Source: Halovivax gelatinilyticus (lineage in GTDB: Archaea; Halobacteriota; Halobacteria; Halobacteriales; Natrialbaceae). From it: a stretch of 64,000 nucleotides of DNA. How positions within the stretch are numbered: the stretch's first letter is position 1; each line of letters begins with the position of its first letter. The position numbers and the translations under genes were made by a program. Under the pieces are notes generated by a model. The model worked only from the letters and a program-made list of their open reading frames with translations, was not told the DNA's origin and made no database searches. The stretch covers positions 2,989,992 to 3,053,991 of the forward strand of contig NZ_CP101322.1 of assembly GCF_024300625.1 (NCBI RefSeq), written 5' to 3'. Below, piece by piece: positions 1 to 17,296 of the stretch.

Positions 1-494
1 AGTTTACGTCCCGGTTCGCAGAGCGTCTGGACGAAGCGTCCGAATACGCCGTTGCGGAGGCAGCATCAGGAACGTGGCTCTCCGCCGGGGACGCCGTCGT
101 CGCACAGGGTGGATCACACCTCGTCGTAGCGGAGTGGAACGACGGAGACCTACGCCTCGAGTGTCGGGATGGGGACCGAGTGCACGGTGTGCGTCCCTCG
201 ATCGACGTAACGATGGAGTCCGTTGCGTCCACCTGTGGGGGCGAACTGATCGGCGTCGTTCTCACCGGGATGGGTCGAGACGGCGTCCGCGGTATCGAAG
301 CGATCAGCGATGCCGGGGGAACGACGTTCGCACAGGACGAACGTACCTGTCCGGTATTTGGCATCCCTCGGCGGACGATCGAAGCCGGCGTGGTCGACGA
401 GGTAGTTCCGATCGACCGACTCCCGAAGCGGCTCGCGGAGACGCTAACCATCCCTGTGAGCGAACGGTCCGGAGGTGTCGAGACAAATGGATGA
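1..494 (+). CDS. cheB: CheB chemotaxis methylesterase, C-terminal part (5' end outside window)
   Basis: This is the end of a CheB protein-glutamate methylesterase, which removes methyl groups from (or deamidates) transducer glutamates during adaptation. The frame is open from position 3, so the gene enters from upstream. The visible 163 residues include the conserved block GVVLTGMGRDGV, containing the catalytic aspartate region of the esterase domain, and later the TFAQDERTCPVFGIP segment typical of CheB. The receiver domain and the catalytic serine and histidine would lie upstream. The last 8 bases overlap the cheA start, which implies co-translation in a che operon. Family assignment is secure, although only the C-terminal half of the esterase domain is seen. 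Confidence 0.93.
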   Translation, partial: FTSRFAERLDEASEYAVAEAASGTWLSAGDAVVAQGGSHLVVAEWNDGDLRLECRDGDRVHGVRPSIDVTMESVASTCGGELIGVVLTGMGRDGVRGIEAISDAGGTTFAQDERTCPVFGIPRRTIEAGVVDEVVPIDRLPKRLAETLTIPVSERSGGVETNG

Positions 495-3400
495 GTACCG
501 ACGCGAATTCGTCGAAGAAGGCGATGAAGCGATCACCGAACTGAACACGCAGTTGCTCGAACTCGAACAATCACCCGATGATAGCGCCGTTATCGACGAT
601 ATTTTCAGAACGGCACATACGCTGAAAGGGAACGCGGGTGCGATGGGTCTCGATCGGATCAGCGATCTCGCACACGTACTCGAGGACGTTTTAGACGAAA
701 TCAAAGCGGGATCCGTACCGGTCTCCCCGTCGCTGATGGATACGATTTTCGATGCGGTGGACGCGCTCGAATCGATGATCGACGAGGTAGCGACCGACGG
801 CCGAATCGAGACGGATCCGAGCCCGGTGATATCATCGCTCAGAACCCACCTCCCGGATGGTACGGCGGAGTTTTCACCCCCTTCCGACGAGGAAATCGAC
901 GAGATACTAACGCGCGCAAACGATCCAACTGATACCGATCACGACGTATTTCTCGTCCGTCTGTCGATCACCCCGTCGGGCGAGTTGAACAACGGCCTCG
1001 TCGTCGTCGAGGCGTTGATCGACGCGTTCGACCTTCTCGGGACCGTTCCGTCGAAACAGGCGATCGAGAAGGACGAACACGGCGATCGGATCGATGCGGT
1101 ATTTTCGTCCGCCGTCGGTGAGTCGTCGATCGAGGCCGCCTTGCAACCGGTCGAGGCAGTCGCGGCGTTCCACATCGTTTCGGTCGGTGACCGATTCGAC
1201 GTGACGGAACCGGTCGAACCTTCCGAGTCGGTCGAGGACGATCTAACCACCGTCGATCTGTCGTCTGAAGAGGCGAACGAGATGTCCGTCGACGAGCTGT
1301 TAGACGAGTTTACGGAACTCGACGACATCGACGCACTCGCCGACGAAATCGAAGACGCGAGCGAGTTCGACGATATCGCCGATGCCGGATCGTTCGACGA
1401 ACTCTTCGACGAACCAACCGAAGCGGACGCTGAACCAGCCGAATCGGACGGTGAAGCGTCCGAACCCGACACGTCTGCTTCGGACGACGATGTCGACGAT
1501 GCGAGTGCCGTGTTCGCCGAGCTACAAAACGAGGTGGAGATGGTCGGGTTCGACGAACTCCAGGAGGAACTGGACGAACTCGAATTCGACGAATTCGACG
1601 AAGACGAGATCGGAATGGACGAATTGCTCGGCGACGACGTAGACGTAGACGATCCGGCGTTCCTCGATATCGAAGCGGACTCTCCGATCGACGAAGCGGA
1701 TCTCTCGCCCGAGAAAGCGGAGCCGACAGTCGCGGACGCGGACTCGCCTCCCACCGAGGCGACCGACGACGAGGTTTCACTCGATGTCGAGGGCGACAGC
1801 CTTGGTTCTGACGTGGAACCTGACCCGTCGGCGGCTGTCGAACCGGATTCGGAGCCGATTTCGGCGAGTGATGAGTCGGACGAGTCGGACCCGGATGGAT
1901 GGGAACCCGAATTCGACTCGGTAGAAGCTGACTCGGTGGACGCCGAAGCACCCTCGGACCCGAGCGACGAGTCGGCTCTTCCGGCCGACGAAGCAGCGGC
2001 CTCTGACGCGGGTGACAGCGAACCGGAGTGGGTCGTCAGTGCGCGGTCCGGTCGAACGACAGACGATACTGCCAACGCATCAGCCGATGACCCGGCCGAC
2101 GACACGTCTGATAGCTCCGATGAACCCGTCCAGGATGTTGCGTCCGCCGGTGAAGCGGCTCCCTCGGAATTCGCCGATGCGCTATTCGGAAGTGAGGCGG
2201 AACCCGATGATCCGTCCGGCGAAGAGGGCGACGATCCGGACCGCACGGACGAGCCGTCTGAATCTCCTGCAGTATCTGACGACGATGGAGACCAATCGAC
2301 CGAAGTCGACGATATCGAAATCGAATTCGACGAAGAGAGCGACGATCCGGCTTCGCCGGTCGAACCGGTCGACGATATCGCCGATGAACTGGACGACACC
2401 GAACGTGCTGTCGAACGCGATGATGCGGTAGCTCGTTCGGAAGTGGACGAAACTGAACCGCCGGCCACCGTGGATCTCGATGAACAACAGCCAGTCTCGA
2501 GCGGTGTAGCCGAAACGGAATCGCCCGACGCACCCGAAACCGAGACGGACCACGATCTAGACGACGAGTGGACGGAGATGGACGACGACGGAGTCTTCGA
2601 GGCGGACGTCTTCGATCCGGAGTTCGTCCCTGAGCCTGACGAGTTCGCCGACGAGTCGTTCGATTCCGGAGTGACCGATGACGAGTCCTTCGATGCTGGT
2701 GTGACCGATGACGAGTCCTTCGATACCGATGTAGCCGACGAAGGGTTTCTCGATGCCGGTGTAACCGATGACGAATCGTTCGACGAGGACGACTTCGCCG
2801 CACTCGACGACGTCGCGTTCGATCCGTCGGACGACGATGATCTCGACGGGGAGGTAATCGATCCAGATCCGACATCGGAGGCGTGGGATGTGGCGTTCGA
2901 CGACACCGATGACGGTTTCGGCGGTGAGCAAACGGCAGGATCGGCAGATTTCGAAGACGACGACCGATTCGCCGTCGACGAATTCGACGATCCATCGGTC
3001 GACGAGTCGTTCGTCGAGTTCGACGAGGAAACGTCGTCGTTCGGAGCGGACGAACGCGATGGTGACGAGGCCGATAGCAGCGAGACGGGTGACCCAGTTC
3101 TCGACAACGTCGCCGAGATGGTCGTTCCGGATCTCAACGTTCCGGATCCGGCCGAATTCGAGACCGAATCGGAGATAGAGACGGGTTCACAGTCCATCAG
3201 AGTCGATCGGGAATCGGTTGACTCGCTCTTGCAGCTGGTCGAAGGGCTCGTCACGTCCCGTGTCCGGCTTCGGTCTGCGGTCACCGACCAGGATCCGTAC
3301 GAGACCCTCGAGCGGGAACTCGACGATCTTGAGGACATAACATCCGAACTCCAGGAGACGGTCATGGACGTCCGACTCGTCCCACTCAAAACGGTGACCA

Positions 3401-4320
3401 ACCGCCTACCGCGCGTCGTCCGAGACCTGGCTCGGGAACAGGACAAACAGATCTCGTTCGAACGTGAGAACGACGACGTCGAACTCGATCGAAGCATTCT
3501 CGATCGAATCGGAGATCCCCTCATCCACCTCGTCAGAAATGCGGTCGATCACGGAATCGAACCGACCGATTCCCGGGAGGAGGCCGGTAAACCTCCGGAG
3601 GGGACGATTACGCTTCGGGCGGACCGATCGCGCGACCGGGTGACTATCGAGGTAACAGACGATGGCAGTGGCCTCGAGGCCGATCGCATCCGAGACGAAG
3701 CGCTCGAAGCCGGGGTCCTAGACGAAGACGAGGTCGACGAACTGGACGATGGCTCGATCTACGATCTGGTCTTCCATCCCGGACTCTCGACGGCTGACGA
3801 GGTCACCGACGTGAGCGGCCGAGGGGTCGGGATGGACGTCGTCAGGCGAACAATCGAGACGTTGAACGGGACCGTTTCGGTCGAGAGCGAGCCGGGCGAG
3901 GGAACCACGGTTACGATGACGCTCCCGGTCAGCGTCGCGATCGACGACGTCCTTTTCGTCGAGACCGCCGGTGAGCAGTTTGGCATTCCGGTAGACGTCG
4001 TTCAGGACGTCGCCGACGGCCGGTTCGTCGCCGAATCGGATGACGGTCTCGTGTTAGACGACGGCGGCGAACCGATGCCTGTCGTCGAACTCGCTGAGGC
4101 GATGGAAACGTCGATGCCGTCGGCCGACAGGGATGGAATGGTCGTGCGAGTTCGAGACGATGTCCGATCGGTCGCGTTACAGTGTGACCTGGTCCACGGT
4201 CGGCGTGAGGTCGTCGTGAAGCCCTTCGATGGGTTCATGCGAGACGTCCCCGGTGTCAGCGGAGCGACGGTCAGGGGTCGGGGTGAAGTAGTGACCATCC
4301 TAGACGTAGCAACAATATAA
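487..4320 (+). CDS. cheA: CheA chemotaxis histidine kinase with very long acidic linker
   Basis: CheA autophosphorylates in response to transducers and passes phosphate to CheY and CheB. I start at ATG 487, which has a GGAGG at 470-474; a GTG at 475 would add four residues. The HPt domain carries the phospho-accepting His44 in FRTAHTLKGNAG. A P2-like region follows at about residues 155-250. From about 250 to 900 the chain is dominated by Asp, Glu and Ser with little predicted structure. The dimerisation helices start near 900 (VDSLLQLVEGLV). The kinase core has an N box (HLVRNAVDHGIE, near 1012), a G1 box (TDDGSGLEADRI) and a G2 box (GRGVGMDVV, near 1109). A CheW-like domain ends the 1277-residue protein. 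Bacterial CheA is typically around 650 residues, so the linker roughly doubles it. Confidence 0.97.
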   Translation: MDEYRREFVEEGDEAITELNTQLLELEQSPDDSAVIDDIFRTAHTLKGNAGAMGLDRISDLAHVLEDVLDEIKAGSVPVSPSLMDTIFDAVDALESMIDEVATDGRIETDPSPVISSLRTHLPDGTAEFSPPSDEEIDEILTRANDPTDTDHDVFLVRLSITPSGELNNGLVVVEALIDAFDLLGTVPSKQAIEKDEHGDRIDAVFSSAVGESSIEAALQPVEAVAAFHIVSVGDRFDVTEPVEPSESVEDDLTTVDLSSEEANEMSVDELLDEFTELDDIDALADEIEDASEFDDIADAGSFDELFDEPTEADAEPAESDGEASEPDTSASDDDVDDASAVFAELQNEVEMVGFDELQEELDELEFDEFDEDEIGMDELLGDDVDVDDPAFLDIEADSPIDEADLSPEKAEPTVADADSPPTEATDDEVSLDVEGDSLGSDVEPDPSAAVEPDSEPISASDESDESDPDGWEPEFDSVEADSVDAEAPSDPSDESALPADEAAASDAGDSEPEWVVSARSGRTTDDTANASADDPADDTSDSSDEPVQDVASAGEAAPSEFADALFGSEAEPDDPSGEEGDDPDRTDEPSESPAVSDDDGDQSTEVDDIEIEFDEESDDPASPVEPVDDIADELDDTERAVERDDAVARSEVDETEPPATVDLDEQQPVSSGVAETESPDAPETETDHDLDDEWTEMDDDGVFEADVFDPEFVPEPDEFADESFDSGVTDDESFDAGVTDDESFDTDVADEGFLDAGVTDDESFDEDDFAALDDVAFDPSDDDDLDGEVIDPDPTSEAWDVAFDDTDDGFGGEQTAGSADFEDDDRFAVDEFDDPSVDESFVEFDEETSSFGADERDGDEADSSETGDPVLDNVAEMVVPDLNVPDPAEFETESEIETGSQSIRVDRESVDSLLQLVEGLVTSRVRLRSAVTDQDPYETLERELDDLEDITSELQETVMDVRLVPLKTVTNRLPRVVRDLAREQDKQISFERENDDVELDRSILDRIGDPLIHLVRNAVDHGIEPTDSREEAGKPPEGTITLRADRSRDRVTIEVTDDGSGLEADRIRDEALEAGVLDEDEVDELDDGSIYDLVFHPGLSTADEVTDVSGRGVGMDVVRRTIETLNGTVSVESEPGEGTTVTMTLPVSVAIDDVLFVETAGEQFGIPVDVVQDVADGRFVAESDDGLVLDDGGEPMPVVELAEAMETSMPSADRDGMVVRVRDDVRSVALQCDLVHGRREVVVKPFDGFMRDVPGVSGATVRGRGEVVTILDVATI
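2650..2787 (+). repeat. 30-bp tandem repeat inside the cheA linker
   Basis: Four 30-base units start at 2650, 2680, 2710 and 2740, followed by a partial fifth unit. Each encodes a ten-residue acidic repeat close to DESFDAGVTD. The copies differ mainly at third codon positions and a few codons, so the repeat has aged under coding constraint. It lies in the disordered linker of CheA, where length changes in multiples of 30 would preserve the frame. Confidence 0.85.
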
Positions 4321-4360
4321 TCATGAACACAACGAGAGACGAAGAGAGGATCATCGAATC

Positions 4361-4966
4361 ATGACGCTGAAAGTAGACATTCGAAAGTTAAGTTTCATCA
4401 ACGAGATGGCGAAGGTTGGAACGAACGGAGTCGCGGATAACCTGAGTAAACTCACCGGACAGGACGCCCGGATGGAGGTAACGAAGACTAACTTCATCGA
4501 CGTCCAGGATATCAAATCCCAGCTCGATGGTGGCAAGCGTGTCGGCGTTCGCGTGCGCCTCCTTGACGAGCCACACGGCCACATCCTTATTCTCTTTCCA
4601 GAAGCGAGTGCGAAGAAGATCACCGCACTCATGCTCAGAGACGTCGTCGACGACATGGAAAACGTCTCCGGGAAGATGGCCAGAAGCGCCGTCGAGGAGA
4701 TGGGCAACATGATGGCTTCTGGGTTCATCGACGGCTGGGCTGACGTTCTCGGTCGGGCAATCGACACGGCTGCTCCGCAGCTCGTCTACGCACCCGCCGG
4801 CGACATCGTCGTCAGGACCGCTGGACTCGGCGGGGAGGATCTAGCGCTTTTTTTCGACTCGAACCTCACGGTGCCGAGTTACCAGATCGAAGCCGAGATC
4901 TACGCGTTTCCCGACCTCGAAGAGTTCGTTGAGATGGTCAACGAAATCGAACCACAGACCGCATGA
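4361..4966 (+). CDS. cheC: CheC-family chemotaxis protein, single domain
   Basis: CheC proteins are CheY-P phosphatases and, in archaea and Gram-positive bacteria, partners of the CheD deamidase. This 201-residue protein has the family motif in RSAVEEMGNMMASGF, with the Glu and Asn spaced as in the active helix (E-x2-N), and the conserved FIDGWADVL that follows. The ATG at 4361 has a purine-rich AGAGAGGA about 11 bases upstream. It lies 40 bases after cheA and overlaps the next cheC-like gene by four bases (ATGA), so it is co-translated with it. Only one E-x2-N helix is evident, so it is a one-active-site CheC. Confidence 0.93.
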   Translation: MTLKVDIRKLSFINEMAKVGTNGVADNLSKLTGQDARMEVTKTNFIDVQDIKSQLDGGKRVGVRVRLLDEPHGHILILFPEASAKKITALMLRDVVDDMENVSGKMARSAVEEMGNMMASGFIDGWADVLGRAIDTAAPQLVYAPAGDIVVRTAGLGGEDLALFFDSNLTVPSYQIEAEIYAFPDLEEFVEMVNEIEPQTA

Positions 4967-6207
4967 GACTCGACGTAAACGCCCTCGGAACGTTCTATCG
5001 GATGGCGAGAGAGGGCGCCGGTCTCGCCGCGGGGCGGCTAACCCAGATGACCGACGTCGAGACGCAAGTGGGCGTGACGAAGCTCAACTTCATGCGCGGG
5101 ACCGAGATCAGACACGATTTCGAAGACGGTTCGGAGAAAGTCGGCATTCGGGTCGAGCTCTCGGGTGGGATTGACGGGCATTCGATCGTCGTCTTCGATC
5201 GCGACAGTGCTCGAACGGTACTCAACGCGTTACTCCCGGATCAGACGACAGACGAGTTCGACGAGTTGAGTCGATCCGCGGCGACGGAGGTCGGTCAGAT
5301 TATGAACAACGGCTTTATCGACGGCTGGGCCGACGTCCTGGAAACCGTCATCGACGTATCCACGCCCGAATTTATCGAAGGGGAGAGTGCCGATCCGTTC
5401 TTTGGGGATCTGGAGACGGCGCCCGACGCGGACGATCTCGCACTCGTCTTTCAGAGTCACATCGAGGCCGTCGGGACCGAAACCGGGTTTCGTCACTACC
5501 TCTTTCCCGAGCACGACTCGATGGCGACGCTCTTAGAACGGTTGCGAACGAGCGAGGGAATCGAGTACGATAAACTCGAAGGGTTCGATCGGATGGCAGA
5601 ACAGGGTGCACAGGAGGTAGCCAGGACCGCGACGACGCTGACCGGGATCGAAACCACGGTCGAGATTCGCCGGCTCAACTTCGTTTCGCTAGAAGCGATT
5701 CCTGAAGAGGTTGCAAACGACCGTCTGGTTGGGGTGGCGTTCGAGTTCGACGGAATGCCGAGTGGCTACCTCTTGTTCCTGTTCGACGAGACGTCGGCGA
5801 CCGAAATCATCGATGCGATGGTACCGATGGATACCGGGACGTCGGAACCAGGTGAGTTCGACGAGATGGGACGCAGCGCCATCAAGGAACTCGGTAATAT
5901 CATGGCGAGTGGGTTTCTCGACGGGTGGGCGAACGTCCTCGATACGACGATCGACCATTCGACGCCCGAGTTCGTTCACGATATCGGTGCTGCCGCGGTC
6001 GACCCGGTAATCATCCATCTCGGCGAACAACAAGATTACGCGTTCGTCTTCGATACGAAGGTCGTCGCCGATGGTCGCGAATTCGATTGCGAAGTGTATG
6101 CGATTCCGGACGAAGACGATCTGGAACGCGCCCTCAACGCTCTCGACGTCGACAAGATCGACGAGACGCCGACGACGGCAGAATTTGGAGAACTAGAAGG
6201 AACATGA
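4963..6207 (+). CDS. cheC: CheC-family protein with two fused CheC domains
   Basis: This 414-residue protein contains two CheC-like domains, at about residues 1-180 and 200-395. Each opens with a similar helix (FYRMAREGAG and FDRMAEQGAQ) and a conserved LNF strand. The second domain has the canonical E-x2-N active helix in RSAIKELGNIMASGF. The first reads RSAATEVGQIMNNGF, so the active-site Asn position is Gln, and that domain may be structural or altered in CheY-P hydrolysis. The ATG overlaps the previous stop, and its own stop overlaps cheD, so the two cheC genes and cheD form a translationally coupled block. The likely role is CheY-P dephosphorylation or scaffold control of CheD. Confidence 0.93.
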   Translation: MRLDVNALGTFYRMAREGAGLAAGRLTQMTDVETQVGVTKLNFMRGTEIRHDFEDGSEKVGIRVELSGGIDGHSIVVFDRDSARTVLNALLPDQTTDEFDELSRSAATEVGQIMNNGFIDGWADVLETVIDVSTPEFIEGESADPFFGDLETAPDADDLALVFQSHIEAVGTETGFRHYLFPEHDSMATLLERLRTSEGIEYDKLEGFDRMAEQGAQEVARTATTLTGIETTVEIRRLNFVSLEAIPEEVANDRLVGVAFEFDGMPSGYLLFLFDETSATEIIDAMVPMDTGTSEPGEFDEMGRSAIKELGNIMASGFLDGWANVLDTTIDHSTPEFVHDIGAAAVDPVIIHLGEQQDYAFVFDTKVVADGREFDCEVYAIPDEDDLERALNALDVDKIDETPTTAEFGELEGT

Positions 6208-6719
6208 AGACGTACGGAACTGAACCAGGAGTGCCAGACCCCGTCCAGGTAGGTATCTCCGAACTCGCCGTCAGCGAGGGTGAGAACACGTTGAAATCCT
6301 ACGGTCTCGGGTCGTGTCTGGCGATCGCGCTATACGATCCGGATACTGGAATCGGGGGGCTCGCTCACACGATGTTACCGGACGGCGACCAGGCAGAAAA
6401 CAGCGATATCAAACCGGGTAAATACGCCGATACGGCGATTCGTGCGTTGCTTCGGCGAATGGTGGAGCGGGGCGCGACCTACACGGACGTCGAGGCGAAA
6501 ATTGCCGGCGGAAGCGATATGTTTGAATTCGAAAGCTTCGGCGACGGCGTCGGAAAGCGCAACGCCGACGCCGCTCGTGCGGAACTCGAGAAACTCGGCG
6601 TACCACTCGTTTCTGAGGACGTCGGTGGAAATCACGGCAGGACAGTGGAGTTTACACCGGGAACTGGAACGCTCGTCATCAAGAGCGGTAACGGAGAAAA
6701 CGGAGTGAGCGAGTTGTGA
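6204..6719 (+). CDS. cheD: CheD chemoreceptor glutamine deamidase
   Basis: CheD deamidates specific glutamines of chemoreceptors and is activated or sequestered by CheC. The 171-residue product has the catalytic Cys in GLGSC and the His in GLAHTML, with usual spacing. The position equivalent to the family's active-site Thr appears to be Ser. The C-terminal half has the GGSDMFEF and VGGNHGRTVEF blocks typical of CheD. I start at ATG 6204, which overlaps the cheC2 stop (ATGA). The open frame continues upstream, but that part is antisense-like in composition and lies inside cheC2. The stop overlaps the cheR start. Confidence 0.95.
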   Translation: MKTYGTEPGVPDPVQVGISELAVSEGENTLKSYGLGSCLAIALYDPDTGIGGLAHTMLPDGDQAENSDIKPGKYADTAIRALLRRMVERGATYTDVEAKIAGGSDMFEFESFGDGVGKRNADAARAELEKLGVPLVSEDVGGNHGRTVEFTPGTGTLVIKSGNGENGVSEL

Positions 6720-7549
6720 GCGACGATGCGTTCGCGTCGATTCTCTCGTACGTCGAATCCAATCTCGGCTTCGCGACGAGCCACTACAACGATAGTTACC
6801 TCGATCGGCGAATCTCGTCTCGTATTCGTCGAACCGGTTGTGACGGATACGCCGAGTACGACGAGCTAATTAGAGAGGACGCCGAGGAACAGACGGCGCT
6901 ACTCGATTCGCTTTCGATCAACGTAACCGGGTTCTTTCGCAACCCAGACGTCTGGGACGGCATTCGTGATGTCCTTGCGATCCTATCGCGTTCGAACGAT
7001 TCCGTTCACGTCTGGTCAGCGGCTTGTGCGGACGGCAGAGAGGCGTACTCACTCTCAATGCTCGCCCACGCCGACCCCGAGATCGACGAGTCGAAACTGT
7101 ACGTTCTCGGAACCGATATCAGTGAACCGGCGCTCGAAACCGCTCGAAGCGGTGTGTATCAACAATCGCGAACGACGGACATCAGCGATCAACTCTCGTA
7201 TCTAGACGCGTTCGATCGATACGTCGAGTGTCGTGGAAAAGACACGTTCGAAGTTCGAGCTCCCGTCCGTGAGAACGTCACCTTCGAACGACACGACCTC
7301 ATCAACGACGAGCCGAAGTCGGGATTCGATCTGGTCATCTGTCGGAATCTGTTTATCTACATCGATCCGGCGTACAAGGGATCGATGCTGGAGACGATCG
7401 GTAAGTCGCTCAGGCAGGAGGGATTCCTGGTGATCGGAAAGGCGGAGACGATTCCGCCACAATTGAAATCGTCGTTTTCGATCCACGACGGACGGTTACG
7501 TATCTACCGATTCGAACCCACAGAGCAGTCACAGCTCAACCTCAGATGA
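6716..7549 (+). CDS. cheR: CheR chemotaxis methyltransferase
   Basis: CheR methylates transducer glutamates using S-adenosylmethionine, opposing CheB. The 277-residue product begins with the CheR N-terminal helical domain and the SINVTGFFRNPDVW block. The SAM-binding domain follows, with VWSAACADGREAYSLSM (motif I), an acidic strand-end in VLGTDIS, and DLVICRNLFIYID near the C-terminus. The start is GTG at 6716, overlapping the cheD stop by four bases. It is the last gene of the che operon seen here. A 117-base gap follows before the next forward gene. Confidence 0.96.
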   Translation: MSDDAFASILSYVESNLGFATSHYNDSYLDRRISSRIRRTGCDGYAEYDELIREDAEEQTALLDSLSINVTGFFRNPDVWDGIRDVLAILSRSNDSVHVWSAACADGREAYSLSMLAHADPEIDESKLYVLGTDISEPALETARSGVYQQSRTTDISDQLSYLDAFDRYVECRGKDTFEVRAPVRENVTFERHDLINDEPKSGFDLVICRNLFIYIDPAYKGSMLETIGKSLRQEGFLVIGKAETIPPQLKSSFSIHDGRLRIYRFEPTEQSQLNLR

Positions 7550-7666
7550 CCGAATCCTTCGGAATCTGAACGCGGGTCGTTCAGTCTGTGTGTTGTACCG
7601 ACGCGATTGGCCGATCCTGACCAGTCGACCACATGGTACATAGTTGCGCGTGACGAATTTTCCGTA

Positions 7667-8806
7667 ATGAGTATGGACGCGCTGGAGCACTGTGTCGAAC
7701 GACTCGATGCGGTTTTCGCGACGAATCCACCCCGATCAGCCGCAGAACGGCGAGACTGGGTGGTTCGTCCTCTCCTCTCAGCGCTCGGTTGGTCCGCCGA
7801 GTCGGTGGACAGACCGTCTTCGATCGAGTCAACTGACGTAGAGGCGTTCGTCCTGTCGGTCGACGTTGACGGATCGACACCTGCGGTAGCCGTCTTCGTC
7901 GATGCCGACGGCCTCACGACCGACGAAGTGGGTAACATCCTCTCGGAGATGGCCCTCGATCGAGCCATCGCATTCAAGCGTGGGGAGATCGCGACGTTTA
8001 CGGGAACGGACGGGACGCCCGCTGCGATCGTCCCGATCGAAGAACTCTCCGACCGGCCGACAGTCCTCGAACCGTTTTCCCGCCAGGAAATCCGTTCACA
8101 CATCGCCTCGCTCGATCCGAGTGACCTCGTCGCCAGACGCCTCGTTGTGTCACGCGACGCGTTGATCGAGACGTTGACGGACGAATTCGCCGATGCGATC
8201 GATCTCGAGCCGAACGAATGCGCCCCTCTCGTCGAGACCATCCTCGACGAACTCGTCACGAAGACCGATCAATCAGCCGGCCTCCCCTCCGGGAGTTCGG
8301 GCACGAAGGGGGACGCGGATCTGATGTTCGATCAACCCCCGAATGAAACGCGTCGAGACGGATCAGCGGACGCTCCCGACGACCGATCGGGGGATGGGCA
8401 CGGATCGCCGGCGACGGACTCCGTATCGGAAATTCCCGATTCCAACTCGCCGACTGAAGACCAGGAGGGCGAGTTCGTCGTTCGCGTGTTCAACGACCGC
8501 GGCAAGATTGGGGCCGTCGGTCACTCGACGTCCGCCGGCGCGCTCTCCGAAGCGACGGCGTACCTCTTCGAACGCGGACTCTCCGGCGTTAGGCTTCCCT
8601 GGCCGGACGACGGCGAGACGTACGTATTGAACGACGAACCCGTCGACCCGGACGGATCGCGGTGGAGCGCCTACGAGCGGCTGTCGAACGGAACCTACCT
8701 TAAAACAAGCGGGACGATCGAGAACCGAGCCGAGCGACTAGAGGCGCTCGCGTCGCGAGCCGGACTCAGGGCGATGCTCACCGGGGACTGGAGCAATCAG
8801 TCGTAA
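7667..8806 (+). CDS. Protein of unknown function with a type I restriction HsdR-N-like N-terminal region
   Basis: I do not recognise a named family for the full 379 residues. The N-terminal 130 residues (ERRDWVVRPLLSALGW, later VAVFVDADGLT and RAIAFKRGEIATFTG) resemble the HsdR_N/endonuclease-like fold found in stand-alone archaeal proteins. However, the usual catalytic Glu-x-Lys is replaced by VFVDADG, so it is probably not a nuclease. Residues of about 205-265 form an acidic low-complexity linker. The C-terminal 110 residues form a separate compact domain beginning FVVRVFNDRGKIG. I chose ATG 7667; an upstream in-frame start at 7607 is possible. It sits between the che operon and a convergent pilus-like operon and overlaps the end of that operon by 10 bases. 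Confidence 0.7.
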   Translation: MSMDALEHCVERLDAVFATNPPRSAAERRDWVVRPLLSALGWSAESVDRPSSIESTDVEAFVLSVDVDGSTPAVAVFVDADGLTTDEVGNILSEMALDRAIAFKRGEIATFTGTDGTPAAIVPIEELSDRPTVLEPFSRQEIRSHIASLDPSDLVARRLVVSRDALIETLTDEFADAIDLEPNECAPLVETILDELVTKTDQSAGLPSGSSGTKGDADLMFDQPPNETRRDGSADAPDDRSGDGHGSPATDSVSEIPDSNSPTEDQEGEFVVRVFNDRGKIGAVGHSTSAGALSEATAYLFERGLSGVRLPWPDDGETYVLNDEPVDPDGSRWSAYERLSNGTYLKTSGTIENRAERLEALASRAGLRAMLTGDWSNQS

Positions 8807-9537
8807 CTGATGTCGACCGAGGTTATCCTGACGACGGCGTGTTCTTGGTCGCATTCATTCTTGTCTTTGAGTCCGAGCGATTCGAGTGATCGTTCCCACG
8901 CCTGGGTATATTCCGAGTCACCCAATTCGATAGTGACATTGCTTCCCTGATAGACGCTCGTCCCAATCTTGTTCGCCGTCACCTCCTGGCTCCCGTGAGC
9001 CATGAGCGACCGCTCGTCACCGTCGACGACGACCAGCGAGACGACCGCGACGCCGTCGACACACCTCATCGGCGGGTCGCGAACCGTGATCTCCCCGCTC
9101 GGCGTGACCTTCACGACGGCTCCACCCTGGTAGGCGACGGTCGTTCCCTCGTACTCGTAGGTGAACGCCCCGATACCATCGTGGTCGTAGTTACTCAGGT
9201 GGTCGTCGAGTACGTCTGTATCAGAGCCGTCTTTAGTTACGTTAATATGTTTAATTGAACCATCGGATTCGACCTGGATGGTCCCTTCTCTGAGATTCAA
9301 CTCCCCGGAGCGTTCGAGAACGCCGTCGTTGCGAACGATGTCGTTGAAGTTCTCCGCGAGCGCGTCCATCGCGAAGTCGGCGTTGTTTTGCTGTTCTGAC
9401 TGCTGGAAGTCGCCCATCGCCTGGAAGCCGGTCATGTAGAGCACGCCCACCGAGGCGATGATGAGGCCGAAGACGATGACGAAGCCGACGACTTCGCTCA
9501 CCCCGCGGTCGGTCGATCGGCCATCGCTCCGAATCAT
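8797..9537 (-). CDS. Pilin-like protein with class III-type signal segment (last gene of pilus-like operon)
   Basis: This 246-residue protein begins with a short charged stretch and DRG, then a hydrophobic helix (VVGFVIVFGLIIASVGVLY). That layout matches archaeal type IV prepilins, which are cleaved by the PibD/FlaK-type peptidase just before the helix. The remainder is polar, acidic and probably beta-rich, as expected for an extracellular pilin or minor pseudopilin head. A possible disulphide pair is suggested by isolated Cys residues near 175 and 230. Its ATG overlaps the stop of the preceding gene (ATGA), making it the sixth cistron of the operon. The family is probably one of the haloarchaeal uncharacterised pilin-associated families; the function is inferred from context. 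Confidence 0.75.
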   Translation of the reverse strand: MIRSDGRSTDRGVSEVVGFVIVFGLIIASVGVLYMTGFQAMGDFQQSEQQNNADFAMDALAENFNDIVRNDGVLERSGELNLREGTIQVESDGSIKHINVTKDGSDTDVLDDHLSNYDHDGIGAFTYEYEGTTVAYQGGAVVKVTPSGEITVRDPPMRCVDGVAVVSLVVVDGDERSLMAHGSQEVTANKIGTSVYQGSNVTIELGDSEYTQAWERSLESLGLKDKNECDQEHAVVRITSVDISYD

Positions 9538-10013
9538 GGCTGATCCTCCAGCGTAATCCCGTCGTCCCAGACGACCTGGATCGGTCCGCCGGTAACGCTC
9601 GAGTTTTCTCGTACGTCTACGTGATCTGCGATCGGGACGGCGACGTTTACGTCCTCACCGTGGGAGGTGAGAACGAGACACTCGCTGGTTTCGACCAGTG
9701 GATACTCATCGATATCGCAACCGGAGTCTCGCAACTCCACGGTGTACTGCGATCCCGACGCGAAGCGCTGGTGGTCCGTTCTGATCGTCGCGCTCTCGCT
9801 ATTTTCGGAAGCCATCCGATCCATGCCGGAAATCTCACCGGCGAGGCGCTCCCCGATGGTTTCGAGTGTCGCCTCGGCCGATTGTTCTCGCTGAGTGTCG
9901 AGCATGCTGCCCGCGCCGATCAACAGCCCGGAGATGAGCACCGCCGTAATTCCGACCGTCAGGACGTGCGTGATGGCGATCGAGACCGCACGGTCGTCAC
10001 GTCCAAACTTCAA
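9534..10013 (-). CDS. Small pilin-like membrane-anchored protein
   Basis: The 159-residue product starts MKFGRDDRAVS and continues into a hydrophobic helix (ITHVLTVGITAVLISGLLIGAG), again a charged tip plus R-A/G and an H-domain typical of archaeal prepilins. The rest is soluble, with two Cys about 15 residues apart (SGCDIDEY and SECLVL) that could form a disulphide outside the cell. The start is TTG at 10013, chosen because it overlaps the upstream stop (TTGA) as the other genes of this operon do. A minor pseudopilin role is an inference. Confidence 0.72.
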   Translation of the reverse strand: MKFGRDDRAVSIAITHVLTVGITAVLISGLLIGAGSMLDTQREQSAEATLETIGERLAGEISGMDRMASENSESATIRTDHQRFASGSQYTVELRDSGCDIDEYPLVETSECLVLTSHGEDVNVAVPIADHVDVRENSSVTGGPIQVVWDDGITLEDQP

Positions 10014-10483
10014 GGTGTCTCACCCAGCGCATCGCCCAGTGTGGCACTGACTGTTATCGTGTTCTCGATGGAGAGGCTATTTGAGGTGTAATGGTACGTG
10101 ACTGCAACCTCGAGATCTTCATTAATGGTTGGTGAGTCAGTGAGCATGCTCGCTTCGGCTTCGACGTGGATGGCCTTCCCCTGCGCCCGCGTCAGAGTGT
10201 ACTGATCTTCGACGTATTCTTCAATCTTGGTTTCCCAACTTACGTTGTTAGTTTCATTAGAATGCTCAATTAAGCCTTCAACTCCGGCTTCCAGTTCGGC
10301 TTCGGTGATCCGTACGTCCTCTGCGCTCTCGCCTGCGTCGCCTGTATTCACCGTCTCCGTGTACTGAACCCCGTTGAAGATGACGACCACGCCGAGGAGG
10401 ATGAACGCGATCGTGATCGCGCCGATGAGGACGAGCTGGCCGCGCTCGGTCCTCTCGTCACCCGGAGCGTTCGCGATCACCAT
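10010..10483 (-). CDS. Small pilin-like protein (third of five)
   Basis: This 157-residue protein carries TERGQLVLIG followed by a hydrophobic segment (AITIAFILLGVVVIFNGV). The position of ERG before the helix fits a type III prepilin cleavage site. The soluble part is acidic and Thr-rich, without recognised motifs. The ATG at 10483 overlaps the previous gene by seven bases. I infer that it is a minor component of the same surface filament or secretion machine as its neighbours. Confidence 0.72.
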   Translation of the reverse strand: MVIANAPGDERTERGQLVLIGAITIAFILLGVVVIFNGVQYTETVNTGDAGESAEDVRITEAELEAGVEGLIEHSNETNNVSWETKIEEYVEDQYTLTRAQGKAIHVEAEASMLTDSPTINEDLEVAVTYHYTSNSLSIENTITVSATLGDALGETP

Positions 10484-11139
10484 ACGGTCACCCGCACTTC
10501 GACGATGTTGTACACTTCGGAGTCGTCGGCTTGCTCCATCGGCGGAATGGGATAGTCGTATTGATCGTGTGCCACTTCGAGGGTGACGGTCTCATCGCTT
10601 TCTTCGGGGCCATTCGATCCGGACACGGTCAGATTCTGCGATTCGTACAGCGTAACCGTGAAACTCGCAGAGACGGCTCCCTGTCCTCTGGCACCACCCA
10701 TTCGGACGGCGTCGGTCGTCGATCGATTATTCTCGTCCTCCCAGTAGATGTACTCGACGTTGTACGAATTCCCTCCGTGTTCGAAAAAGTGCGTATTCAG
10801 TACGTATCCGAAGTCGCTCACGTTCGCATACGCCGAGTTGTTGTAGACGAAGTCTGCGTCCTCACCGAACGTCGCGTCGATCCACTCTTCGCTTTCGTTG
10901 TCGTAGTACCGAACCAGCTTCGAGAGGTCGTCACTCGCCGCTCCGGTCATCACGACGTCTTTGACCTCCTGTTCGGCCTGTGCCTGTACACCGCGATCTA
11001 CCGCGCCACCCGTCGTCGGCGTGATCACGACGGCCTGCAGCGCGAACAACACTGCCGTCAGGAGAACGATCGCCGCGACAAACCCTTCGAGCGTAAACGC
11101 CTGGCCACGCTCGTCGGTCGTTGGACTTCGATCTCTCAT
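10477..11139 (-). CDS. Small pilin-like protein with TLEGF prepilin-like helix
   Basis: The 220-residue product has ERGQAFTLEGFVAAIVLLTAVLF near its N-terminus. The FTLEG portion is reminiscent of the bacterial type IV prepilin signature, with a glutamate shortly after the processing site. The soluble domain is long and contains many Tyr, Asn and Asp, consistent with a surface-exposed head. Its ATG lies one base after the preceding stop, so the genes are coupled. The exact subunit role cannot be determined from sequence. Confidence 0.74.
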   Translation of the reverse strand: MRDRSPTTDERGQAFTLEGFVAAIVLLTAVLFALQAVVITPTTGGAVDRGVQAQAEQEVKDVVMTGAASDDLSKLVRYYDNESEEWIDATFGEDADFVYNNSAYANVSDFGYVLNTHFFEHGGNSYNVEYIYWEDENNRSTTDAVRMGGARGQGAVSASFTVTLYESQNLTVSGSNGPEESDETVTLEVAHDQYDYPIPPMEQADDSEVYNIVEVRVTVW

Positions 11140-11140
11140 G

Positions 11141-11635
11141 CTACCACACCCTCACGGTCAGTACACAGACGGGATCACATTCGCTTTGTTCGGTCGTCAC
11201 GATTCGCGTTGCACTGGCACCGATCTCTCCGTCGTACAGATGCCCACTTGCATTTACGTACTCTGCAGAGTCGTCACCATACTCGTCTAGCTCCACAATG
11301 GTCACGTTCACGCGATCGAACGCGCGATCACTCGAACTGCGCAATCCCAGGACTTCGATGAGGTCGTCCCCATCCTCATCGTAGTACTCATCGAATTCCT
11401 CGAGGTCTAGCTCGTTTGGCGTGTCAGTCGAAGCGTTATCGACGATCGTCGCGGCGATTCGATCGGCCTGCGCCGTCTGTGCGCCGCCCGCGTCGGCAAA
11501 CGGCGTGATGATCGTCGGGACGAACGCGAAGATGAACGCCACCGCGAGTATGAACAGACCGATCCCGACGGCGAAATCCTGAACCGTCTGTCCGCGGTCG
11601 TCCCCCATCGGCTTCTGTCGTGGTTCGTACGTCAT
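11141..11635 (-). CDS. Small pilin-like protein immediately downstream of the platform gene
   Basis: This 164-residue protein has DDRGQTVQDF followed by a hydrophobic helix (AVGIGLFILAVAFIFAFVP), the same charged-RG-helix arrangement as the other four small proteins. The soluble part is very acidic and ends SECDPVCVLTVRVW, with a close Cys pair. The ATG at 11635 begins four bases after the platform gene's stop. It is likely a prepilin-like subunit or assembly factor of the machine encoded by this operon. Confidence 0.74.
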   Translation of the reverse strand: MTYEPRQKPMGDDRGQTVQDFAVGIGLFILAVAFIFAFVPTIITPFADAGGAQTAQADRIAATIVDNASTDTPNELDLEEFDEYYDEDGDDLIEVLGLRSSSDRAFDRVNVTIVELDEYGDDSAEYVNASGHLYDGEIGASATRIVTTEQSECDPVCVLTVRVW

Positions 11636-11639
11636 GGTA

Positions 11640-13703
11640 TCAGGCGATCAGCGACCAGCTAACTAGCGCGACCGTCGAGAGGGCGATGACGTACTTCAGT
11701 CCGCTCAGCAGCTTCGCATCTCGCATGTAGCCGCTGATGAACCCGGACAGGATGGCGTGCATCGTCACAGCGTGGAAGAACAGAAGTGACATCAGGTTCA
11801 CGTCGATATTATCGCTGAGATCCATATCCGACATCGGACCACCCGCAGCTTGTGCTTGATCTGCATCCACCTCTCCTTCGGTCCCGAGTCCAGACATCGT
11901 CTCCAGGAACTGCGTCTGCAAGATCGCGATCACGGCGAGCATCGTCATGAACGTCATGATGATGATGACGACTTGCATCCGCGTGCGCGACTTTCGGTCG
12001 CGCTCGATGTCGTCGTGGTTCTCACTCGCTCGTGCGGCCGTCCGAAGGACGTTCGAAATCTGATTCGACGCCTCCTGGGCTTTCGTAATCAATTTCACCG
12101 TTCGAGCCAGCCGCGGGATGTGGTACTTGTTGTTGAACTCGATCATCGTCGCTTTCAGACTCATCCCGTAGTTGACCTTGGTGTGCATCTGCTCGAACTC
12201 GCCGGCCAGTTTACCATTCGTCGTGTCCGACACCGATTTCAGCGATTCGAGCAGCGTGAGCCCCGTATCGTTCGCACTCGAGAGTTTTCGGAGGTCTTCA
12301 GAGAGCGTCGAAACGACCTGGTGTCTGGATCTGACGTTCCACTCGTAAAAGATCGCAAGCGGTATCATCGTTGCGTACACCGGAAAGTAGACGTAGATGA
12401 ACGTCCCCCAGACCGGATTTTCTTGCATTCCCGACCAGCTCGTCGGCGCGGAGTCTTGAACCATCGCTGACGTTACGATGACCAGGACGGCGGGGACGGT
12501 AAGCGCGAGTGTGTACATCGGATTCTCTCGGAAGAAGTGATGCGGTCGCTGGAGGACGTTCATCGTCTCGTGTGTCCCCTCCCGATTCTTGATCCGATCG
12601 AACACCCGGTGGCTGCCAGTGAACTGCTCGATGAGTCCCAGATCGAGCAGGCTGCTGTTCTGGGTCGCTCGTAACCGCTCGTGACCGCCGTCGGGACTGA
12701 GGTAGCCGTCGCCGATCTCGTCGTGTTTCACCGTCGACACGAGAACGATGAACCCGATCCCAGTCAGTGGAATTAGGGCGTAGACCGAGATGTAGATCAT
12801 GCTTATCGAGACGTCAGAACCCGGAATCATCTGCATGATCACCAGGATGATGATCAAGAGTAGCGGAAACAGCGAGAGCGTCATGTACATCTCGCCGAAT
12901 AGCTCCAGGGTCTCTAACGTGAGTTCCTGTTGCTGTTTGGCCGTCCGCATGTGCTTTTCTTTCTTATCCGAGAGGAAACTCTCCATGTCGCCACCGCTGT
13001 TGACGATCGAGAGCATATCTGTCAAAAATTGAGACAGCTCGTCGCTCGGTGTCTCGATCGCCTGATTTCGAATTGCCGTTCGATAGTCCGTATCGAAGTA
13101 TTCAGTTTCGTTTACGATACTCTGAAACTCCTTCGAGACCTCGCCGTACGTATCGTCGGCTTCGGCCATCGCTTCTAAAATTTCGAGCTGGTTGAGCCCG
13201 CCAACCGAGAGGGCGTACATGAACGAGACCGAGTCGGTAAGCAACATGTTGATCTCGCGTTTTCTGGCTGACGCTCTCGAGTATGGGACGGCGACGAGCG
13301 ATCCGAAGCCGAGTGCGAACCCGAGCGACCCAAAGACGATGCCACAGAGAATAACCAGAGTCGGTATTTTAACCGTCTCCCAGAGGTTGAGCATCGTTTC
13401 GCTCGACATCGGTACGCCGAAGATTTCTTCGACTTCGACGAGCCCCGTTCCGAAGACGGCCCAGCCGATGAGTAATCCCAGAATCCAGAGGAACAAGCCG
13501 CTGATGAACCCGATACCGATTGCACGGGAGAGGTACATCTCGACCGTGTCCGTCATTCTGGCCTGAGCGAGCTTCTTCTCCACGTCGGCGGCGAACTGGC
13601 TGTCGTCGCTAAACAGCCGGGCGTAGACCGGATAGAACGTATCACCGAGGGTGTCGGAGTCGCCGAATCGGGTATCCGATGGATCTCTCTGCTGAAAACT
13701 CAT
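11640..13703 (-). CDS. TadC/PilC/FlaJ-type platform membrane protein, two T2SSF domains
   Basis: This 687-residue membrane protein is the inner-membrane platform on which the ATPase acts in type IV pilus and type II secretion machines. Two T2SSF-like repeats are visible. The first lies around residues 150-320, with the helical block NMLLTDSVSFMYALSVGGLNQLEILEAM. The second lies around 430-620, with LRKLSSANDTGLTLLESLK. Each is bracketed by transmembrane helices, and the last helices are near residues 590 and 640-685. The ATG overlaps the ATPase stop (ATGA), so the two are co-translated. Archaellum FlaJ is usually somewhat shorter, so this is better called a generic pilus or Tad-like platform. 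Confidence 0.92.
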   Translation of the reverse strand: MSFQQRDPSDTRFGDSDTLGDTFYPVYARLFSDDSQFAADVEKKLAQARMTDTVEMYLSRAIGIGFISGLFLWILGLLIGWAVFGTGLVEVEEIFGVPMSSETMLNLWETVKIPTLVILCGIVFGSLGFALGFGSLVAVPYSRASARKREINMLLTDSVSFMYALSVGGLNQLEILEAMAEADDTYGEVSKEFQSIVNETEYFDTDYRTAIRNQAIETPSDELSQFLTDMLSIVNSGGDMESFLSDKKEKHMRTAKQQQELTLETLELFGEMYMTLSLFPLLLIIILVIMQMIPGSDVSISMIYISVYALIPLTGIGFIVLVSTVKHDEIGDGYLSPDGGHERLRATQNSSLLDLGLIEQFTGSHRVFDRIKNREGTHETMNVLQRPHHFFRENPMYTLALTVPAVLVIVTSAMVQDSAPTSWSGMQENPVWGTFIYVYFPVYATMIPLAIFYEWNVRSRHQVVSTLSEDLRKLSSANDTGLTLLESLKSVSDTTNGKLAGEFEQMHTKVNYGMSLKATMIEFNNKYHIPRLARTVKLITKAQEASNQISNVLRTAARASENHDDIERDRKSRTRMQVVIIIMTFMTMLAVIAILQTQFLETMSGLGTEGEVDADQAQAAGGPMSDMDLSDNIDVNLMSLLFFHAVTMHAILSGFISGYMRDAKLLSGLKYVIALSTVALVSWSLIA

Positions 13704-16700
13704 GACTCGTCCTCTTCGTCGAATCGATCGGCTTGTTCGTCCCCTTCGGCTTCGTTTACGTCGTCGCTACCGGTCTCACTCCGGGGGGACGCCTCGTTTT
13801 CGTCCTGCTCTGACGAACCGAAGATCGATTCCTCGTCCGACTCCCGGTCGAAGATCGAGCCAGAATCGCCTGTATCGGGCTCAGTATCGTCGAACATGGG
13901 CCCGTCTTCCGTGCCAAAGATCGACCCGGTGTCGTCGTCTTCTGTGTTGTCTGTCGACTCGTCCCCGGTCGACTGTTCCGACTGAAGCTCTCCCGATTCC
14001 CACGCGTCGTCGGCACTGTCACTGGCTGGTTCCCACTCGGTCTCGTCGTCCGTTGCTCGATCGGATCGGTCAGTTTTACTCACTTCCTTCGTTCGCGCTC
14101 GTCGACCGAGATCCCACTCCGGCTCGCTCTCATCCGACTCGTCTCCTCCCGGTGAGAAGATCGAAGCGAGATCGTCCTCCGGGAACATCGAGTCGAAATC
14201 TGACGTATCCGGTTGCAACGAGTCGTCTTCTTCAGATGGCTCAGATTCGATGGTGCCCGATTCGAGCGCTTCCAGCGTATCTTCCATCCCGGTAAAGAGA
14301 CTCTCCAGTCCGTCACCAGAATCGTCCGCCGATCGGTCCGTCGCGTCCGGGTCGCTGATTGTGGGCGACGGCTCTTCGAGTTCGAGCGTGTCATCGGACG
14401 TCGCATCGAGTTCGGCCGACTCTGTAGGGTCGTCGCTTCCTTCCAGTGCCGGTGGATGCGCTACGGCTTCGCTTTCGTCAGTTTCGACCGTTTCCTGGGC
14501 GGTTCCTGAGGCCTCAACTGTCTTGGTTTCGATTCCATCATCCTCGAGCCAGGATGGCGTCTCGGCTTCGGCTTCGACACCTGCCTCCGCCGAGGGTTCG
14601 TCGAAAGTGAACGCTTCGTCTTCGTCGGCGCCCCACTCGGGTGCCGGTCCGGTCACGAACGCTTCGTCGAAGTCGAACGCTTCCTCATCCGTTGGTTCGA
14701 ACGCAGTTTCATCCGCTTCGACCTGCTCCAGCGCGCTTGCAAGCCCACTCGGGACGCGCCCGCGATACTCGTCGAAGAGTGACTCTTCGGCTCGCTCTAG
14801 GATGTCCATCGACAGGTTATAGGTCTCTGTTGATGCGTCCGGGCGTGGAACGAGTTCTTCCTTTTCGGGATCGACGTCGATCTTGACGCTCTCCATCTCG
14901 CGGAGGTCGGCGAGGCTGTGTTCTAACTGATCGTTCGCGATCAGCGTGAGAATGGTATCCGGATCGTTGATGAACGCCTGAACCGTCGCTGCCACCTCGG
15001 CGTACGTATTCAACCCGTTTCTGATCAGGTAGGCCAGAATCACCTTCCGCTTGAACAGTTCGTCCTGGAGCTTCTCGTAGTTCCAGCCCCGATCGAACAT
15101 GATCTCGTCTAGGGTGTTCGAATCACCCATTTTGAGATACTCGTCCGTCTCGGCTTGCCACTGGTAGACGTCTTGAACGTTTATCTCGTCGTTCTCCGCC
15201 TCGTAGTGGTTAATCTCGGTTAGCGACTTGTTCCGCCGGACCTTGCGTCCCTGTACTCGCGTCTGGGTCTGGATGGAAACGAGATCCAGAGCTGTGAACA
15301 TCGTCTTCGAGACATTGATCGGATCCGTCGTAAATCGCTTTAGCACCTCGTCGACCGAGTCGGCGTGGAAGGTAGTGTACGTAGTGTGACCCGTCGACAT
15401 CACCTGAAACAGCGTTCGACCTTCTTCTCCACGGATCTCACCCATGACGATGTAGTCGGGTCGTTGACGCAGTGCCGCTTCTAGCAGGTCGAACTCGTCG
15501 ATATCGCCGGTGGAGTCGTCGGAGAACGACGGCCGGGTCATCGAGGCGATCCAGTTTCGTTGCGGGAGTTCGACTTCGCGTGTATCTTCGATCGAGACGA
15601 TCTTCGTGTTCGCCGGTATGAAAAGCGATACGGCGTTAAGCGAGGTCGTCTTCCCGGACGCAGTCCCGCCGGCGAAGATCAGGCTCTTGTGATTTTCGAT
15701 ACTCAGCCAGAGAAACGCCATCTCGTCTAGGCTGAACGTGTTCCAGTTTATCAGGTCGATCGGGGTGAACGGGACGTCCTTGAACTGCCTGATCGTGTAG
15801 TTCGTCCCGTGATCGGAAACTTCCTGCCCGAGTGTGAGCTGTGCCCGCGAACCGTCCGGCAGCGTCGCGTCGACCTGTGGAAGTCGCTTACTGATACCTT
15901 TCCCCGACCGCTGTGCGAGTTTGACAACGAAATCGTCCAGATCGTCTTCACCGTGATACACGTTGGAGATGATCTGTTCGTATTCGGAATGGTAGACGAA
16001 GACGGGCGAGTTGTACCCGTCACAGGAGATGTCCTCGACGTTGATGTCGTGTTTGACCGGATCGATTCGTTCGTAGCCGATGAAGTCGCGTTTTAACATG
16101 TACAGCAACTTTTCGACCTGGTACTCGTTGAGGGTGTCAGGATCTTCCTCGAGAAGTATCGGTTCCGGCCTGACCGAAATACCCTGGAGCGGTGCGTGCG
16201 TTTCCGCCTCATCTTCGTCGTCGCTATCTTCGTCATCGTCGAAGAACTCTTTGAACGACTCGATGATTCCCATCGTCGTCGCGTTGCTCGACTCTTCGAA
16301 CAGATCGTATCGTTTGAGCAACCGACGGGTCTCTCGTTCGATGACCTCTCTACGGCCGTCCTCGTTTCGCTTGTTCTTGACGCCATCGTCGGCGTACTTG
16401 ATCGCCGTTCTGAGTTTCCCCGAGAGAAATTCCTGTAGTTCCCGTTCGATCTCGTTTCGGTACGGCTCGACGACGTAGTACTTCTTCTCGTTTTCTTTCT
16501 CCGAGTGGAAGATGATGATGAACGAATACGGTTTGTTGACCCAGTATCGCTCCGTCTCTTTGAAGTGGAGTTTCTTCTCAAACGGAACGGTTTTTTCGAG
16601 ATCGTATCGGTTGACGACGGTCGTATTCCCGTGATCGGTCGAGAAGAACTCGTCTTCATCCAGGTCTTCGTTGACGTCGACCGTCCGTTCGTCGACGAGC

Positions 16701-17296
16701 TCGTCGAGTTCCATCGCCGCGTTACCTGCGGCGTGAAGCTGGGATTCGATCGAATCGGGATCGAATCCGAGCGCCTCTTCGCCGTCGAACCGATCGATGT
16801 CACCCTCTTTCGTCCGTGGTCGCGATCCGTCGTCGTCGTAGTAGTACTCCCACTTGTAGTGCTCCCAGGTGTAGACATCTTTGACCACGGGCGTCGTTTC
16901 CGGGTTAACGTACTCGAGAAATTCGTTCCAGAGATATTTCGCATTCGGAGCGAACGTCTCGGTGATCAGTGATTCGACATCGTCCGGGTGGTATCCAAGA
17001 TAGGTCGTCGGGTCGAAATCGACCCGATCCCAGTCGGAGCCACGTGGAACGGATGCACGCCCGTCCGCGTCGAGGCCGAGCTGTTGACCCGAATCGGTCG
17101 AATCTTCTGGGTAGAGCGTCGAAACGTCCGTCTCGTACCCGTACTCGGTCATGAAATCCTCCCACGTGTACGATCCTACTCGAACGGCTGCGCCGCTCGT
17201 CGGACCGCTCGTTTCATCGGAATCCGGGGTCGAATCTGACGAGTCCCCGTCAGAAAATCCCCGAACGCCGGTGTGGTCGCCCTCGTCAATAGCCAT
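13700..17296 (-). CDS. Type II/IV secretion (pilus) ATPase with long acidic C-terminal tail
   Basis: This 1198-residue protein is a GspE/TadA/FlaI-family ATPase that powers pilus assembly or secretion. An N-terminal region of about 400 residues precedes the motor core. The core has Walker A (GGTASGKTT, near residue 542), an Asp box (VSIEDTREVELPQRN), Walker B (IVMGEIRGEEG, near 619) and a His box (STGHTTYTTFHADS). From about residue 870 the chain turns into a tail of over 300 residues rich in Asp, Glu and Ser with short repeats such as SIFG and SIFD. I start at ATG 17296 because GGAGGGT (complement of 17301-17307) is ideally placed; a GTG at 17317 would add seven residues. Archaeal homologues such as FlaI are near 550 residues, so this one is about twice as long. 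Confidence 0.95.
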   Translation of the reverse strand: MAIDEGDHTGVRGFSDGDSSDSTPDSDETSGPTSGAAVRVGSYTWEDFMTEYGYETDVSTLYPEDSTDSGQQLGLDADGRASVPRGSDWDRVDFDPTTYLGYHPDDVESLITETFAPNAKYLWNEFLEYVNPETTPVVKDVYTWEHYKWEYYYDDDGSRPRTKEGDIDRFDGEEALGFDPDSIESQLHAAGNAAMELDELVDERTVDVNEDLDEDEFFSTDHGNTTVVNRYDLEKTVPFEKKLHFKETERYWVNKPYSFIIIFHSEKENEKKYYVVEPYRNEIERELQEFLSGKLRTAIKYADDGVKNKRNEDGRREVIERETRRLLKRYDLFEESSNATTMGIIESFKEFFDDDEDSDDEDEAETHAPLQGISVRPEPILLEEDPDTLNEYQVEKLLYMLKRDFIGYERIDPVKHDINVEDISCDGYNSPVFVYHSEYEQIISNVYHGEDDLDDFVVKLAQRSGKGISKRLPQVDATLPDGSRAQLTLGQEVSDHGTNYTIRQFKDVPFTPIDLINWNTFSLDEMAFLWLSIENHKSLIFAGGTASGKTTSLNAVSLFIPANTKIVSIEDTREVELPQRNWIASMTRPSFSDDSTGDIDEFDLLEAALRQRPDYIVMGEIRGEEGRTLFQVMSTGHTTYTTFHADSVDEVLKRFTTDPINVSKTMFTALDLVSIQTQTRVQGRKVRRNKSLTEINHYEAENDEINVQDVYQWQAETDEYLKMGDSNTLDEIMFDRGWNYEKLQDELFKRKVILAYLIRNGLNTYAEVAATVQAFINDPDTILTLIANDQLEHSLADLREMESVKIDVDPEKEELVPRPDASTETYNLSMDILERAEESLFDEYRGRVPSGLASALEQVEADETAFEPTDEEAFDFDEAFVTGPAPEWGADEDEAFTFDEPSAEAGVEAEAETPSWLEDDGIETKTVEASGTAQETVETDESEAVAHPPALEGSDDPTESAELDATSDDTLELEEPSPTISDPDATDRSADDSGDGLESLFTGMEDTLEALESGTIESEPSEEDDSLQPDTSDFDSMFPEDDLASIFSPGGDESDESEPEWDLGRRARTKEVSKTDRSDRATDDETEWEPASDSADDAWESGELQSEQSTGDESTDNTEDDDTGSIFGTEDGPMFDDTEPDTGDSGSIFDRESDEESIFGSSEQDENEASPRSETGSDDVNEAEGDEQADRFDEEDES

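Follow-up and report, generated by a model that had tools for sequence, protein, structure and literature searches.

The window analysed here is a 64,000-nucleotide stretch of the Halovivax gelatinilyticus genome, and its minus strand contains seven adjacent genes that encode an assembly ATPase, a membrane platform protein and five small pilin-like proteins, which are numbered 1 to 5 from the ATPase side. A chemotaxis (che) gene cluster and one uncharacterised gene are located beside them on the plus strand.

17317-13700, minus strand: pilB4-type assembly ATPase, 1205 aa (Pfam T2SSE 2.9e-30; weak PilB3_N and PilB3_C matches)
13703-11640, minus strand: pilC4-type membrane platform, 687 aa, with two T2SSF domains (Pfam T2SSF 9.5e-31)
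11635-11141, minus strand: pilin-like protein 1, DUF7287 (Pfam 1.2e-41), signal DDRG/QTVQDF
11139-10477, minus strand: pilin-like protein 2, DUF7288 (Pfam 5e-49), signal DERG/QAFTLE
10483-10010, minus strand: pilin-like protein 3, DUF7261 (Pfam 1.6e-8), signal TERG/QLVL
10013-9534, minus strand: pilin-like protein 4, DUF7266 (Pfam 3.1e-19; weak Pilin_N match), signal DDRA/VSIA
9537-8797, minus strand: pilin-like protein 5, DUF7289 (Pfam 1e-53; weak Pilin_N match), signal TDRG/VSEV
7607-8806, plus strand: convergent uncharacterised gene, 399 aa, whose 3' end and the last pilin gene share 10 nt
475-7549, plus strand: cheA, cheC, cheC, cheD and cheR, from open reading frames, with CheR by Pfam; a conserved neighbour in Natrialbaceae, outside the pilus operon

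From the ATPase to protein 5 the genes are separated by gaps of -4, +4, +1, -7, -4 and -4 nt, and this tight spacing makes a single transcript likely. The ATPase reading frame begins with a GTG codon, and position 17296 is an in-frame ATG located 7 codons inside it. A preliminary description of this DNA had proposed a six-gene operon, with the ATPase and platform genes first, five consecutive prepilin-like genes, and all genes overlapping or nearly touching. The coordinates bear out this layout, including the five prepilin-like genes, but the count of genes is seven. All five pilin-like proteins match their DUF families above the Pfam cut-off, and the platform has an ArlJ-like score of 86 bits, which is under the cut-off.

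The DUF7288 family is present above cut-off in 272 of the 292 Halobacteria genomes; of the 14 genomes used as controls, only Haloferax volcanii has it. The gene order was compared across haloarchaea, as had been suggested at the outset, and the complete order PilB-PilC-1-2-3-4-5 is found in 103 of 116 ATPase loci, four of which have additional copies of protein 5, and seven further loci lack protein 3 only. The preliminary description considered five putative minor pilins without a major pilin to be unusual; the gene-order survey and the DUF7288 distribution identify this as the normal PilB4 layout, for which a PilA-related major pilin has been proposed (PMC4858521).

Several variants of the locus are present among the sampled genomes. 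At 36 loci outside Natrialbaceae the operon is closely followed downstream by a larger DUF7289-type gene in opposite orientation (e.g. L039, 3498-5186). Sets of five pilin genes without a PilB or PilC of PilB4 type in the fetched stretch are found at L034, L036, L038, L040, L044, L046, L051, L061, L094 and L095, and L046 has two such sets side by side. Copies of the operon are also carried by a Haloferax mediterranei plasmid (L103), a Halobaculum plasmid (L104) and a Haloferax marinum contig (L176), two of these being flanked by PilA-type pilin genes. One genus (g43) has eight sampled genomes that lack both DUF7288 and archaellin (G044, G073, G157, G209, G236, G250, G253 and G256), and CheR is absent in both of its genomes tested.

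Class III signals of the pilin-like proteins were evaluated with a FlaFind-like test, which demands the core [KRDE][GA][ALIFQMVED][ILMVTAS] and a hydrophobic run of 20 residues, the first 14 of which carry no more than one charge. The five proteins all pass (RGQT, RGQA, RGQL, RAVS and RGVS, from protein 1 to 5, with the operon order as listed above), and they are the only ones to do so among the 49 likely coding genes of the window, while all 267 mechanical open reading frames of the window yield one extra. The motif and the helix are retained in 56/56, 56/57, 48/49, 54/58 and 87/94 homologs of proteins 1 to 5, respectively. Protein 2 (aligned over 75 sequences) has an invariant signal residue R11, likewise Q13 and E18, and in protein 4 (73 sequences) the signal residue R8 is invariant. 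Uniqueness of the motif in the window and conservation in homologs rule out a chance resemblance of the five N-termini, and the class III signals that had been assigned to these proteins by eye are upheld, their cleavage being predicted. A single gene of the PibD-type prepilin peptidase family is found elsewhere in the genome.

The AlphaFold models of proteins 2 and 4, which were built from alignments that leave out the rows of two annotated plasmid records, have mean pLDDT values of 88.9 and 90.8. Protein 2 is modelled as a helix of 58 residues (11-68) followed by beta strands, and protein 4 as a helix of 64 residues (7-70) followed by seven strands; in both the long helix starts at the signal motif. 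By this layout of N-terminal helix spine and beta domain, the two confident models have pilin architecture, with the alpha-helical spine that a reading of these proteins as prepilins implies. Foldseek and VIA-align comparisons of the two models with the PDB give no significant match to solved pilins, an outcome that says little for long-helix proteins; the EpsI:EpsJ pseudopilin chain 3cfi_G (VIA-align Z 3.6, rmsd 3.7, 68 aligned residues) is tied with unrelated rows. The DUF7288 profile has no match among PDB sequences, and a literature search found no papers naming these DUF families.

The core of the ATPase covers approximately residues 400-790 of 1205, and is flanked by a halobacterial N-terminal extension and an acidic C-terminal tail. 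In a FastTree phylogeny of core domains it clusters with Haloferax PilB proteins longer than 1000 aa and is separate from PilB3, ArlI and additional groups. In three Haloferax genomes the sole T2SSE protein above 1000 aa is a member of this group, at a distance of 48-58 kb to ArlI and of 116-138 kb to PilB3. These distances in the three Haloferax genomes agree with what we take to be the position of the locus tag HVO_1160. From ATPase phylogeny, size and Haloferax synteny, the operon is very probably a PilB4-type type IV pilus locus, corresponding to PilB4-C4 of Makarova et al. 2016 (PMC4858521), and therefore belongs to an already known haloarchaeal type IV pilus system. HVO_1160 (PilB4) carries additional Halobacteria-specific domains at its N and C termini and has a pilin set of its own, which includes the PilA-related arCOG03926, the predicted major pilin, and a shared minor pilin of variable length and frequent duplication, arCOG02911 (PMC4858521). 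Size, similarity to Pilin_N and the occurrence, outside Natrialbaceae, of long DUF7289 paralogs next to the operon suggest that DUF7266 (protein 4) corresponds to arCOG03926, and would then be the likely major pilin, and that DUF7289 (protein 5) is probably arCOG02911.

The Halovivax genome encodes three T4P-type ATPases, which are the operon ATPase, ArlI and a PilB3-like protein of 620 aa (L081) that has its own platform and no pilin genes; a fourth T2SSE match is weak. An accessory archaellum module is an extremely unlikely reading of the operon. The che genes adjoin it here, and its ATPase and platform have sub-threshold matches to the ArlI and ArlJ models, but it lacks archaellin, ArlCDE, F, G and H, and of 30 sampled genomes that carry it, 10 are without any archaellin-family match. 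In the tree the ATPase falls outside the ArlI clade, and ArlI and the archaellins are located about 590 kb away, in agreement with the preliminary description, which saw no archaellin and held that this is not the archaellum locus. Clade and gene content thus reject the archaellum assignment.

The five proteins could also assemble into a short pseudopilus of the type II secretion kind, whose task would be to drive exported proteins through the S-layer. Among solved structures, the best relative of the ATPase is 2oap, described as an archaeal "type II secretion system protein"; the genes bear the NCBI name "type II/IV secretion system", and the operon has several different small pilin-like proteins without an abundant PilA. 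A consistently linked secreted cargo gene is missing, however, and the haloarchaeal relatives PilB1 and PilB3 build adhesive pili. To our knowledge, archaea also have no outer-membrane secretin, which defines type II secretion, so a pseudopilus is considered improbable.

Somewhat less improbable, though still to be doubted, is a machine that mainly polymerises stand-alone PilA pilins, all five operon proteins being minor or initiation subunits. Four stand-alone Pilin_N genes are present in the Halovivax genome, and some PilB4-type operons have Pilin_N genes no more than about 8 kb away, namely those of Haloferax mediterranei (two genes, beside the plasmid copy), Halobaculum halophilum and three other loci; PilB3 is able to use pilins from a different locus (PMC6491452). 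At most PilB4 loci, however, a Pilin_N neighbour is missing, the published PilA machine is PilB3-C3, which is present in this genome without pilins of its own (L081), and Makarova et al. judged PilA dependence of the PilB4 system unlikely (PMC4858521).

Compared with known systems, the operon is closest to Haloferax volcanii pilB4-pilC4 (HVO_1160; a clade 2 T4P variant, Makarova et al. 2016 Fig. 4B, PMC4858521), with which it shares the ATPase clade, the long extensions, PilC, an own pilin set and a Halobacteria-wide distribution. It differs by a shorter protein 3 in Natrialbaceae, by the adjoining che operon and by repeated S-[ILM]-F motifs in the ATPase tail, which are found in Natrialbaceae only. 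The pil-2 locus of Halobacterium salinarum (OE1347R-OE1332R), which consists of seven co-transcribed ORFs in 6.9 kb, is also restricted to Haloarchaea and has ATPase and platform genes followed by small prepilin genes; unlike the present operon, its pilC2 has a stop and three FlaFind-positive pilins are reported (PMC4292770). The pil-2 ATPase may belong to clade 4C. The Haloferax volcanii pilB3-C3/PilA1-6 adhesion pili have a clade 2 ATPase, a platform and PibD-processed pilins in common with the operon, but their ATPase is short and they have no operon pilins; a separate copy is the L081 locus of Halovivax. The archaellum (ArlI, ArlJ, archaellins) has a homologous ATPase, platform and class III signals, but forms a separate clade and locus, rotates and needs ArlCDEFGH.

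The acidic C-terminal tail of PilB (window 13700-14900) contains seven S-[ILM]-F motifs. Tails of 19 out of 19 Natrialbaceae orthologs have 3-7 of them, while orthologs from elsewhere, as far as they could be anchored, have none or, once, a single one. Shuffled tails are expected to have about 0.1, and none of 1000 shuffles matches the observed count. The EESLF copy is part of a conserved segment, which leaves 2-6 motifs in the variable tail. A genome search for clusters of S-I-F-G with a single codon pattern gives four scattered matches, one of which is in the PilB tail. As a guess, the tail might be a multivalent docking site. These repeated motifs in an ATPase tail look unreported in the literature consulted.

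In Natrialbaceae the pilus operon converges on the uncharacterised gene, which is followed by the che operon (L206, L207, L211 and L212 are among these loci). The 399-aa convergent gene has no Pfam family above cut-off, is present in 18/18 Natrialbaceae loci and stays beside the pilus operon also where che is located elsewhere; within the same limited stretches CheR is found in 17/18 and CheA in 14/18. The CheA of the window (475-4320) is 1281 aa in length and has a linker that is acidic, repetitive and very long. Besides the sampled operon-bearing genomes without an archaellin-family match, an eleventh, G045, has a single archaellin hit of 1.9e-4, which is below cut-off. The six Natrialbaceae genomes without convincing archaellin, G045 included, all retain cheA, cheC, cheC, cheD and cheR, and in four of them this set is at most 10 kb away from the pilus operon. 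A highly conserved cheY is found in all five archaellin-less Natrialbaceae whose upstream flank was read (G045 being outside this sample), and outside Natrialbaceae cheR is present in only one of five archaellin-less genomes. For che retention in Natrialbaceae against the others, Fisher's test gives p 0.015, or 0.048 without G045, in a comparison that ignores phylogeny and was chosen after the pattern was seen.

Retention of che without convincing archaellin suggests a chemosensory link to PilB4 pili, which is a lead rather than a result. It is possible, though rather unlikely, that the Che pathway of Natrialbaceae acts on the PilB4 pilus and confers directed, pilus-based surface behaviour in archaea. 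Alternatively, che may be retained to serve some other output, or to serve archaella missed by the profile. The neighbourhood may also be inherited, since pilB4 is within about 60 kb of archaellum genes in Haloferax. The conserved adjacency of che in Natrialbaceae looks unreported, like the tail motifs.

In type IV pili, prepilins are cleaved and then polymerised by PilB through PilC at the expense of ATP. In the PilB4-type system described here, the five prepilins would be inserted in the membrane by the N-terminal helix, and PibD would cut them after R-G/A. A hexameric PilB ATPase, by way of the PilC platform, would then polymerise the pilins into a thin filament on the cell surface, the core of which would consist of the N-terminal helices. 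The main subunit would most likely be the PilA-related DUF7266, and the other four proteins would act as minor, initiating or tip subunits. By analogy with the related PilB3 and PilB1 loci, which are required for adhesion (PMC6491452, PMC4292770), the most likely role would be contact with surfaces or with other cells, as in adhesion and biofilm. In Haloferax, PilB4 and PilB1 are detected only in glycerol minimal medium (PMC7305310), and in H. gibbonsii pilB4-C4 is expressed and down-regulated upon virus infection (PMC12542753). A study of a pilB4 mutant was not found in the literature consulted.

The operon is a new member of an ordinary, well-conserved and already described kind of haloarchaeal pilus, and as its arrangement is the standard PilB4 one, work on the five pilins can be done in Haloferax. 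Makarova et al. 2016 found no evidence for chemotaxis control of type IV pili other than the archaellum (PMC4858521), and the che-pilB4 neighbourhood together with che retention in Natrialbaceae gives a concrete and testable ground to revisit this statement of the 2016 census.
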